Below the pieces are notes generated by a model. That model did no database searches, was not told the DNA's origin, and saw nothing but the letters and a program-made list of their open reading frames with translations. Position numbers and translations under genes: made by a program. From positions 1 to 64,000 of the forward strand of contig JAKAJS010000285.1 of the NCBI GenBank assembly GCA_021813685.1: 64,000 nt of DNA, written 5' to 3'. Positions 16,873 to 20,069 of the stretch are shown piece by piece; position 1 is the stretch's first letter, and every line of letters begins with the position of its first letter. The stretch is from Deltaproteobacteria bacterium (GTDB lineage: Bacteria; Desulfobacterota; Syntrophobacteria; Syntrophobacterales; Syntrophobacteraceae).

Positions 16873-18318
16873 ATGGACGAAAACCCCTATCAACCGCTCG
16901 TAAATCTTTTGTCAAACGTTTTGGAAGCCTATACGACGGCTTTTTTCGTCTTCGACAAAAAGAGCCGCAAGCTCCATGTGGCCGCCATTCAGAGCCTCAG
17001 CAAATTCATCCCCCCCCGGCTCTCGCTGCCTCTCGAGGGAAGCGGCATCCTCTCCCAGGTCCAGAAGGTGGGACAGATCATTCACCTCGACAAGCTCCAC
17101 GAGGCGACCTCCTCGATCTCTCTTACCCTTCCCTTCTACCGGGAGGGAGAATCCCACATAAAGGGGCTCTATGCGGCTCCGGTGGCAGGGGGGGCGGGGA
17201 TTCTCTACGTCGATACCAAATACGGCTGGGGCTTTAACGATAAGCAGCAAAAGTGGATCCGCGAATTTGCAGACCTTCTGGGGAGGCTTCTTCTCAGCCG
17301 TGAAGCCAAAGGGCGGCAGGAAAACCACGCAAACATTTTCGAGGTGCTCCTGCGGCTCGATGAGATCGCCTTCAAGGGGTGCGACTTCGAAAACTACTGC
17401 GGTCTTTTTGCCACCGAATGGGCAAAACTTTTGGGCATGGATTACGGGTTTTTGGTGCTGCAAAGACCGGGCGGAAAAAACTACCGGGTCCTTGGCGCCA
17501 CGGCCAATACGCCAAGAGGGATTTCGACCCAGAGTTTTTCGGCCGACAAGGGGCTCATCGGCTGGGTGCTGAAAAACCCCAAGAATCTGCTCATCATGCG
17601 CATGAACCCCGCCACCTCCGATCACTATCTCTTCTCTCCCGGCGAAAACCTGCCTCACCAGGGAACGGTTTGGGGAATGCGCGGACAGACCTCGCTAGGA
17701 TACTCTCTGGCACTCCTTTTTCTCTCCCGCCAGCCGATCGACTGGAACACGGACTGCGAACGGGCCGTGGCGCACGCCTTCCGCTTCCTGTTGCTTTTGC
17801 TCGAACAGATCTACTGCAGGGAGGAAAACGAGGCTCTTCGCTGCTACGACATCACGACGGGGCTCTTTAGCGCACCCGCTTTCGAATCGCGGGTCGAGGG
17901 GATCTTTCACGCCTCGATGCAGTCAAACGCCCCCTTCACTCTGGGCCTCATCCAGTTCGAACCCTGGCAGATCCTCACCACCAAGGTCCAGCCCCCGAAA
18001 CTGCGGCAGCTCCAGCGCGATCTGGCGACCGCCCTTTGCGAGGCCCTGCCCACGGGGGTGCTGATCGGCCAGCTTGCCCAGAACCGATTCGGGCTTCTGT
18101 TTGCCGAAACGACCGTCCACGAGGCCGAAAGCCAGCTCCTGGAGCTCTCCGGCTACGGAAAAATCGCTCTAAAGGGCCTAAAAGGCGTAAAACTCCACCC
18201 TTACGTCTCCTCTGCGGGGTTTCCTCAGGATGCGGCAAAGCTCGAAGAGCTCTGGCCCCTTGTGAGCAAAAGACTCTTTGCGGCATTTAACGTACGGCCC
18301 GAAAAGGCGGCTTCATAA
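16873..18318 (+). CDS. Tandem GAF protein with degenerate GGDEF-like domain
   Basis: A 481-residue cytoplasmic protein. Residues ~1-150 and ~155-310 each read as a GAF domain (e.g. LHVAAIQSLSKFIPPRLSLP with GLYAAPVAGGAGILYVDTKY; ENYCGLFATEWAKLLGMDYG with ADKGLIGWVLKNPKN). Residues ~320-465 resemble a GGDEF fold: the start YDITTGLFSAPAFESRVEGI matches the usual D-x-L-T-G-L-x-N-R region, but the active-site loop reads QLAQNRFGLLF rather than GGDEF, so it should be catalytically dead. It lies 134 bp upstream of mreB on the same strand, which suggests but does not prove a regulatory link to cell shape. Confidence 0.75.
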   Translation: MDENPYQPLVNLLSNVLEAYTTAFFVFDKKSRKLHVAAIQSLSKFIPPRLSLPLEGSGILSQVQKVGQIIHLDKLHEATSSISLTLPFYREGESHIKGLYAAPVAGGAGILYVDTKYGWGFNDKQQKWIREFADLLGRLLLSREAKGRQENHANIFEVLLRLDEIAFKGCDFENYCGLFATEWAKLLGMDYGFLVLQRPGGKNYRVLGATANTPRGISTQSFSADKGLIGWVLKNPKNLLIMRMNPATSDHYLFSPGENLPHQGTVWGMRGQTSLGYSLALLFLSRQPIDWNTDCERAVAHAFRFLLLLLEQIYCREENEALRCYDITTGLFSAPAFESRVEGIFHASMQSNAPFTLGLIQFEPWQILTTKVQPPKLRQLQRDLATALCEALPTGVLIGQLAQNRFGLLFAETTVHEAESQLLELSGYGKIALKGLKGVKLHPYVSSAGFPQDAAKLEELWPLVSKRLFAAFNVRPEKAAS

Positions 18319-18452
18319 ACAGTTGACCGGCCGGTTCATTGTCTATAGACTCTTTGACGGTTTCGCTCATCATTTTCCGGGAAGAGGCGGGGACCACGGA
18401 ACAGTCCCGCGTCCGCCCGGTTTGCCAATAAATAAAATGGAAGGGTTCGCGT

Positions 18453-19475
18453 ATGTTCGGATGGCTCCAGTCATATTTTGCACAAGACCTGGCCATGGAC
18501 CTCGGGACCGCCAATACGCTCATCTATATGCGCGGAAAAGGGATCGTTTTAAACGAGCCCTCGGTTGTGGCCCTGAACCAGGACACCAACCAGGTCATCG
18601 CTGTCGGGCAGGAAGCCAGAAATATGATCGGCAGGCACGGTCACAGGATCGTCACCATCCGTCCGTTAAAAGACGGCGTCATTGCCGATTTCGAGGTAAC
18701 GGCGGTGATGATCAAATATTTTTTGTCCAAGATTTTGAACCGGCGCCAGCTGTTTAAACCCCGGCTCGTCGTGGCTGTCCCCACCGGAATCACCTCGGTT
18801 GAAAAGCGGGCGGTGATCGAGGCCGCCGAGCAGGCCGGTGCGCGCTACATTCACCTCATCGAAGAACCGATGGCCGCGGCCATCGGAGCGGGTCTTCCCA
18901 TCGACCAGCCGCACGGAAACATGGTGGTGGACATCGGGGGCGGGACGACCGAGGTGGCGGTGATCTCCATGTTCGCGGTGGCCTACAGTGAATCGGTGCG
19001 GGTGGCAGGAGATGAGGCAAACGAGGCGATTCTTCGCTACATTCAGCGGGAGCGCCAGATGATCATAAGCGAGGTGCTCGCCGAATCGGTCAAGATGCGC
19101 ATCGGCTCGGCTGTCGCCTTCGAAAAGCCCGAATCGATCGAAATCACGGGAAAAGAGATCCTCTCAGGGATCCCCAAGACATTTGCGATAAGCGATGAAG
19201 AGATCCGCACGGCCATACGGGAGCCCATCGAGGCGATCGTCGAAGCGGTAAAGCGCGCCCTTGAGAAAACCCCGCCCGATCTTGCCGCAGACATCCATGA
19301 CAACGGATTCTGGCTCGCAGGCGGAGGGGCTCTCCTGAAGGGGCTCGACAGGCTTTTATCCCGCCACACGAGCCTCAAGGTCAATATTGCCGAAGACCCC
19401 CTCACCGCCATCGCCAGGGGCGCGGGGTCGGTCATCGAACACGTAGACTTCTACAGGAGCGTCTTTATCAACTGA
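18453..19475 (+). CDS. mreB: Rod shape-determining protein MreB
   Basis: A 340-residue bacterial actin that organises lateral wall synthesis at the inner membrane. Phosphate-1 motif AMDLGTANTLIY, phosphate-2 VVDIGGGTTEVAVIS, and adenosine motif LAGGGALLKGL are all present, with IEEPMAAAIGAG and VAVPTGITSVEKRAV between. Length is typical. There is no mreC or mreD downstream; instead an unknown gene starts on the base after the stop codon. This may be one of several MreB/Mbl paralogues. Confidence 0.96.
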   Translation: MFGWLQSYFAQDLAMDLGTANTLIYMRGKGIVLNEPSVVALNQDTNQVIAVGQEARNMIGRHGHRIVTIRPLKDGVIADFEVTAVMIKYFLSKILNRRQLFKPRLVVAVPTGITSVEKRAVIEAAEQAGARYIHLIEEPMAAAIGAGLPIDQPHGNMVVDIGGGTTEVAVISMFAVAYSESVRVAGDEANEAILRYIQRERQMIISEVLAESVKMRIGSAVAFEKPESIEITGKEILSGIPKTFAISDEEIRTAIREPIEAIVEAVKRALEKTPPDLAADIHDNGFWLAGGGALLKGLDRLLSRHTSLKVNIAEDPLTAIARGAGSVIEHVDFYRSVFIN

Positions 19476-20069
19476 ATGGCCGATATCATCGATTTTTCCT
19501 CGCGGTTAAAGCAGGGGGACAATCTCATTTCGGTGTCGCCTCTCGAATTCCGCAAAGGCCCGTGGCTCTCCGGAAAGGCGATTCTTTGCACGCGGGAAGA
19601 ATCTGCAAGACTTGAGTCCCAGTATAGAAAATCGAGCCCCGATAGACCCCTCGTGAGCCTTGTCCCCAATCACCAGACGCTTGAGGGCGGCTGGCACTAC
19701 ACGGTCCTGTGGCTTTTCCGGTTTCGGGAAAAGGAGGAGTTCATGCGGAGGCTCTATCGCCTCGCCGGCCTCATGGAATGCGCAACCTCGGCCCCTTCCC
19801 CGGTTTTGCGAACCGATCTCGTGCGGCGGTTCTTCAAGATCATACACGAGGAGCGCGAAGCGCTAAACGTCTTCTGGAAGGGAAGTGTGCGGAGCTTTCT
19901 TTTGCCGCTTCGAAGCGAACACTACGACCAGGGGGGATTTTTTTCCCGGGTGAGCAGCGCTTCGAACCTGAAGGAGCTCCTTGACGCAATAGAAAGGGAA
20001 ACGAACGAACAGTTCGACATCCTTGCCAAACACTACGTCTTCTATGTGCCCGCAGCCTTTCTCCGGTAA
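19476..20069 (+). CDS. Uncharacterised protein translationally coupled to mreB
   Basis: A 197-residue protein I do not recognise. Its ATG directly abuts the mreB TGA, a configuration that usually means translational coupling. The sequence is soluble, basic and aromatic-rich, with no signal peptide or membrane segment. Notable stretches are MADIIDFSSRLKQGDN at the N-terminus, VSLVPNHQTLEGGWHYTVLW mid-protein, and a helical C-terminal half ending KHYVFYVPAAFLR. The tight pairing suggests a role with MreB, but no function can be assigned. Confidence 0.75.
   Translation: MADIIDFSSRLKQGDNLISVSPLEFRKGPWLSGKAILCTREESARLESQYRKSSPDRPLVSLVPNHQTLEGGWHYTVLWLFRFREKEEFMRRLYRLAGLMECATSAPSPVLRTDLVRRFFKIIHEEREALNVFWKGSVRSFLLPLRSEHYDQGGFFSRVSSASNLKELLDAIERETNEQFDILAKHYVFYVPAAFLR

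Follow-up and report, generated by a model that had tools for sequence, protein, structure and literature searches.

Several MreBs in one bacterium are known. In Bacillus these are MreB, Mbl and MreBH (available parts of PMC7641798), and PMC4287179 counts three MreBs for D. gigas against two for other Desulfovibrio, naming no partner for them in its accessible part. Extra actin-like proteins of the magnetosome, MamK and Mad28, occur in Thermodesulfobacteriota and Nitrospirota, Mad28 being called a clade distinct from MreB in the available text of the same source (PMC10653835). A dedicated protein that binds MreB and sets its behaviour is RodZ, according to the accessible sections of PMC12372405. 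Like Bacillus, the bacterium studied here has more than one MreB per cell, and one of these is encoded directly downstream of a gene for a GAF protein, designated gene 1. To our knowledge, no GAF partner is known for the Bacillus MreB paralogs. A conserved gene for a ligand-type sensor beside mreB was not found described: full-text searches, made mostly outside subscription papers, returned no account of the pair, and the available parts of PMC4287179, PMC3546991, PMC7873302, PMC10653835 and PMC12372405 do not describe it.

The window, i.e. the whole stretch of 64,000 nucleotides that was analysed, belongs to an assembly of 5.06 Mb, 97% complete and 6% contaminated. The three genes of the preliminary description were recovered as open reading frames, the third one, u197, beginning with its ATG on the base directly after the TGA of mreB. 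The features of the locus are:

16873..18318, forward strand: gene 1, 481 aa, predicted cytosolic protein of the order GAF-GAF-(GGDEF-like), from the open reading frame, the Pfam matches of its family and the AlphaFold2 model
16891..17367, forward strand: first GAF domain of gene 1 (residues 7-165), more strongly conserved than any other part of the family
17386..17847, forward strand: second GAF domain (residues 172-325), from the model and Foldseek
17869..18297, forward strand: GGDEF-like domain (residues 333-475), catalytically degenerate
18076..18090, forward strand: AQNRF replacing GG[DE]EF (residues 402-406)
18453..19475, forward strand: mreB paralog, 340 aa, of the gene-1-linked clade
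19476..20069, forward strand: u197, 197 aa, lineage-restricted, a neighbour rather than a part of the core pair

Gene 1 and mreB are spaced by 134 bp in the window. One promoter-like site was located between them, compared to 1.1 expected by chance in the region, and the scans for promoters, terminators and ribosome sites gave nothing decisive. To the left of gene 1, on the opposite strand, lie what we take to be mutL and miaA, and this neighbourhood was seen again in relatives. The nearest relatives in the genome scan mostly carry Syntrophobacteraceae labels.

The 340-residue protein matched NCBIfam model NF010539 over its full length with 479 bits (cut-off 293, E 5.3e-144) and TIGR00904 with 457 bits (cut-off 366), so that by its sequence it is certainly an MreB. 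It resembles the MreB/Mbl family (PF06723; NF010539, TIGR00904) in sequence, in its nucleotide motifs and in a mostly hydrophobic N-terminal segment, but differs in being encoded outside an mreBCD cluster, in belonging to a separate clade and in its link to a GAF protein. Identity with MamK was rejected for this actin, which scored 73.5 bits against the MamK cut-off of 400. At E 1e-114 or better, the genome encodes three MreBs: that of the window and those on contigs C8 and C35, which are 61% and 54% identical to the window copy, respectively. The C35 copy is canonical, being followed by genes for MreC (PF04085), a PBP2-type transpeptidase and a RodA-type protein on a contig separate from that of the window; a 173-aa open reading frame at the place of mreD had no Pfam match. 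The canonical cluster that the preliminary description had advised looking for was thus located (mreB-mreC-PBP2-rodA), and, as it had noted, neither mreC nor mreD was found after the window mreB, which is therefore an extra copy.

The pairing of gene 1 with mreB was followed through named genomes, one per species, with the gene 1 alignment as query, which yielded 59 loci. In 55 of these, gene 1 is followed by an mreB of the same strand; in the remaining four (L163, L174, L189 and L194) the contig ends at gene 1 or at most 250 bases after it. The loci include those of Desulfovibrio, Desulfurivibrio, a Desulfobulbaceae MAG, Desulfacinum, Desulforhabdus and two Nitrospirae MAGs. The gap from stop to start was at most 332 bp in 52 of the 53 loci measured and 1505 bp in one, and a 4-bp overlap of both genes was present in six of the 53, suggesting translational coupling. 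Twenty-four genomes assigned to the same phylum as one of the Nitrospirae MAGs were also inspected. Gene 1 was present at full length in 18 of them and mreB adjoined it in 16, the exceptions being one locus that the end of its contig truncates (L239) and one with 1.5 kb of downstream sequence without mreB (L235, genome G458). Among the clustered loci, mreB was found within 1.5 kb of gene 1 in 41 of 47 members; the exceptions were G041, where it lies just past 1.5 kb, three genomes of family f3, G059 and G372. In family f3, gene 1 remains by mutL and mreB is located elsewhere (L086-L088, L121-L123), and in G059 gene 1 is present without a linked mreB. No fusion of the two genes was noticed among the open-frame lengths.

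The neighbours of gene 1 vary by family (mutL/miaA, gatB/mtnA-like, suhB). A DivIVA gene (Pfam), or genes which we presume to be yggU or yggT, lie in the vicinity of the pair in families f5, f15, f21 and f23, which points faintly to envelope growth or division. Over 26 genomes, the distances of gene 1 covaried with those of the linked MreB at a partial r of 0.48 (0 of 5000 permutations as high), a value exceeded by that for the canonical MreB (0.54); the covariation is not specific with respect to canonical MreB and was therefore not counted as support. The core of the locus is the pair of gene 1 and mreB, which is conserved in two phylum-level groups, a conservation that far exceeds what the sequence of the window alone could reveal.

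For the MreB tree, sequences were labelled solely by the genes that adjoin them: as linked if gene 1 lies upstream, as canonical if mreC (or PBP2/rodA) lies downstream, and as other in the remaining cases. Out of 108 rows, 19 were removed (15 near or same-clade copies, one duplicate locus and the three very divergent rows L113, L208 and L209). In the resulting tree of 89 MreBs, a branch with a bootstrap of 100 and an SH-aLRT of 99 has 36 canonical and four unlabelled MreBs on one side and all 41 gene-1-linked MreBs with eight others, namely third copies of f1, copies of f3 and the G041 copy, on the opposite side. A first tree of 69 rows, in which L113 was kept, placed the 41 linked MreBs and ten others on one side with a support of 97/64. 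The window MreB does not group with the mreC-linked MreBs. Together with the pairing in 55 of 59 and 16 of 18 loci, this dividing branch bears out the earlier proposal of a dedicated second MreB apart from the canonical mreBCD. The linked MreBs of the Nitrospirae attach near the dividing branch (90/61), so that the pair may have arisen once, before the split of the two groups, or have been transferred between them. Placement in the tree is least certain for the fast-evolving linked MreBs on long branches in f53, f70, f82 and f85. At loci L114-L118 (f53, f70 and f82), such a fast-evolving MreB is accompanied by a gene 1 of 294-322 aa in a cluster with genes for GatB and an MtnA-like protein.

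With six very divergent linked rows set apart, 23 alignment positions consistently separate 40 canonical-side from 48 linked MreBs, among them E188 and N190, as against K and D. The phosphate-1 motif DLGTAN is present in 54 of 54 linked rows and a DIGGGT-type motif in all with one exception (DIVGGT), and the N-terminal segment is mostly hydrophobic, also in the window copy. Since the nucleotide motifs are kept, the linked MreB should be a working ATPase. The third MreB of the Syntrophobacteraceae nests in the linked clade with no gene 1 beside it, which makes the third MreB of f1 a later duplicate and means that some members of the clade live without gene 1. In six genomes, a gene for a D,D-carboxypeptidase (Peptidase_S11) on the opposite strand adjoins this third MreB (G000:C8:36444-37463, L066; L126-L130).

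The number of MreB copies goes with gene 1. Of 40 genomes found to carry gene 1, 37 have at least two MreB matches (E 1e-40) and three (G059, G063 and G171) have one, while the 29 genomes without a gene 1 match comprised two with no MreB, 23 with one and four with two, in a set of genomes that was chosen rather than random, in which gene 1 was partly sought with a single sequence, so that distant copies may be missed, and from which G035, G036 (two abutting fragments) and G048 were left uncounted. Both MreBs of G055 and both of G089, two genomes without a gene 1 match, fall with the canonical MreBs in the tree. For G087 and G093, the extra MreBs share 31-33% identity with the window MreB and are too divergent to place, and the stretch examined around them held no gene-1-like open reading frame.

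By itself, the window gene 1 protein matched no Pfam or NCBIfam model. Across its family, Pfam GAF_2 was matched by 44 of 53 members and GGDEF by 35 of 53. Its AlphaFold2 model (mean pLDDT 89.3) shows two GAF folds and a GGDEF-like domain, with long helices joining them and bounds that were read by eye from the secondary structure of the model; no membrane segment is visible in it. The model and the family matches agree with the double-GAF protein before mreB that had been recognised earlier. A Foldseek search retrieved GAF-type sensor structures, tandem-GAF ones among them, and GGDEF domains, with 5llw and 1ykd among the best matches, and the GGDEF-like part resembles the T. maritima GGDEF structure 4urs with a TM score of 0.80 by target length. 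The first GAF domain has a mean information of 2.47 bits versus 1.93 for the second, and all 11 invariant columns of the family fall within it; with this conservation it would be the likeliest shared functional site, either for a ligand or for MreB.

In the order of its sensor and GGDEF domains, gene 1 corresponds to the GAF-GGDEF diguanylate cyclases. Unlike in these enzymes, the active-site signature is intact in no gene 1 member examined and the domain can be missing. The loop reads AQNRF in the window, so the preliminary description was right to call it degenerate, and an intact GG[DE]EF was found in 0 of 40 long members and in 0 of 18 further relatives, in which the nearest-to-intact forms are kept (e.g. 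RYYGDVF). Twelve of the 53 members are shorter (309-357 aa) and have no GGDEF-like domain, which is therefore dispensable for the pairing. Synthesis of c-di-GMP by this domain was rejected, the signature being absent in every member checked, and no RxxD-type inhibitory site is visible by eye in the window protein. The c-di-GMP-like signal suggested earlier is thus unsupported, because the signature is intact in no member examined and the domain is entirely missing from the short ones. At L085, L094 and L089, the short form of gene 1 is immediately preceded by a small open reading frame (73-112 aa, cluster c27) that is rich in Cys. A gene-1-like profile match (1.6e-14) was also seen at L229:1741-3099, close behind mreC in the canonical cluster of G141.

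We favour, with moderate confidence, a two-gene module, whose second MreB, dedicated and competent as an ATPase, would be regulated or positioned by the cytosolic GAF protein. The GAF protein would probably dimerise through the long helices between its domains and would bind a small ligand or respond to the state of the cell, the first GAF domain reading the signal; control by a ligand acting on the GAF domains is plausible. The gene 1 protein would bind the linked MreB and so control where or whether membrane filaments form. The f3 family and the third MreBs of f1, in which a member of the linked clade occurs apart from gene 1, speak against this mechanism. The second MreB would work beside the canonical MreBCD elongasome and may direct a specialised share of envelope synthesis or be a positional scaffold. 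Its coupling to gene 1 can be likened to that of MreB to RodZ by analogy only. RodZ resides in the membrane and carries an HTH domain, whereas gene 1 encodes a predicted soluble GAF protein, and RodZ-type HTH open reading frames occur separately in the genome. As these are present (HTH_25 matches G000:C199:9910-10092 and G000:C209:10452-10628, each in a 351-codon open frame), loss of RodZ is not supported as an explanation of gene 1. In the sampled f21 and f15 genomes, RodZ-type HTH_25 gave weak, short matches only.

The direction of control may be the reverse, with MreB as a scaffold whose filaments or patches bring the GAF protein to a particular place in the cell, where this protein would act on something else. 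Such an arrangement would suit a gene 1 protein that is predicted to be soluble and has sensor domains but no intact output enzyme, as well as linked MreBs that keep their ATPase motifs and mostly hydrophobic N termini. It appears unlikely, however, as gene 1 has no other consistently linked partner, its neighbours changing from family to family. The linked MreB could also be a redundant MreB of the elongasome that co-polymerises with the canonical one, as for MreB, Mbl and MreBH of Bacillus, the GAF gene being a linked regulator without contact. The identities of 61% and 54% to the other MreBs of the genome and the DivIVA, YggU and YggT genes near the pair in several families are in line with this explanation, but it is rendered improbable by the deep separate clade with its 23 diagnostic positions and by a gene 1-mreB linkage kept in two phylum-level groups.

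The third gene was found in 49 of 97 sampled relatives, distributed by family as f1 25/26, f2 7/8, f3 0/5, f4 1/1, f5 10/12, f6 3/3 and others 3/42. Among the named loci, 21 of 59 have u197, in all cases within about 3.2 kb downstream of mreB: it abuts mreB in five, lies 375 bp off in one and follows a CBS-ACT gene in 15. It abuts mreB only within the genus of the window. In f5, f11 and f21 it lies away from the pair; the distance is 1.0 Mb in G069 and 2.6 Mb along a single contig in G044 (0.6 Mb if circular). The preliminary description had proposed a unit of three genes. This stands for gene 1 and mreB and fails for u197, since the trio breaks up in relatives, u197 being separated, distant or absent outside the genus of the window. 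It is scarcely credible that all three genes nevertheless function together and that u197 is a coupled partner of MreB. Its start on the base next to the mreB stop, both in the window and in 5/21 named loci, and its proximity in all 21 might indicate this, but u197 is located away from the pair in f5, f11 and f21, absent from 5/5 f3 genomes and separated from mreB by the CBS-ACT gene in 15/21 loci. We conclude that u197 is an accessory neighbour in one lineage, outside the core pair.

The CBS-ACT gene (L069:5273-6010 and relatives) follows the linked mreB in most other f1 and f2 genera, has no counterpart between the mreB and u197 of the window, and is still beside mreB in f3 (L121-L123), where gene 1 is not. 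In f5 and f11, u197 adjoins a fumarase-like gene (L081, L083, L090, L103 and L104). The u197 family is conserved and the predicted model is mostly helical (pLDDT 83.7). The window protein had no Pfam match and 24 members gave a single weak one (E 0.0081); PDB sequences included no relative below E 0.49, and Foldseek against the PDB returned nothing better than E 1.6, with VIA-align Z at most 2.1, so that u197 is without an identified fold in these searches, which is no proof of a new fold.

With the module of GAF protein and second MreB as the preferred reading, the second MreB of Desulfovibrio and relatives gains a defined lineage and a candidate partner, and gene 1 is usable as a marker of the linked MreB class. 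More tentatively, Thermodesulfobacteriota and Nitrospirota may share an old second actin system, in which the assembly of an MreB lineage of its own would be gated by a dedicated dual-GAF sensor and switched on and off by a metabolite or redox cue, next to the MreBCD elongasome. If the partner controls filament assembly, the pair would connect a small-molecule signal directly with a bacterial actin, along a path that can be tested.
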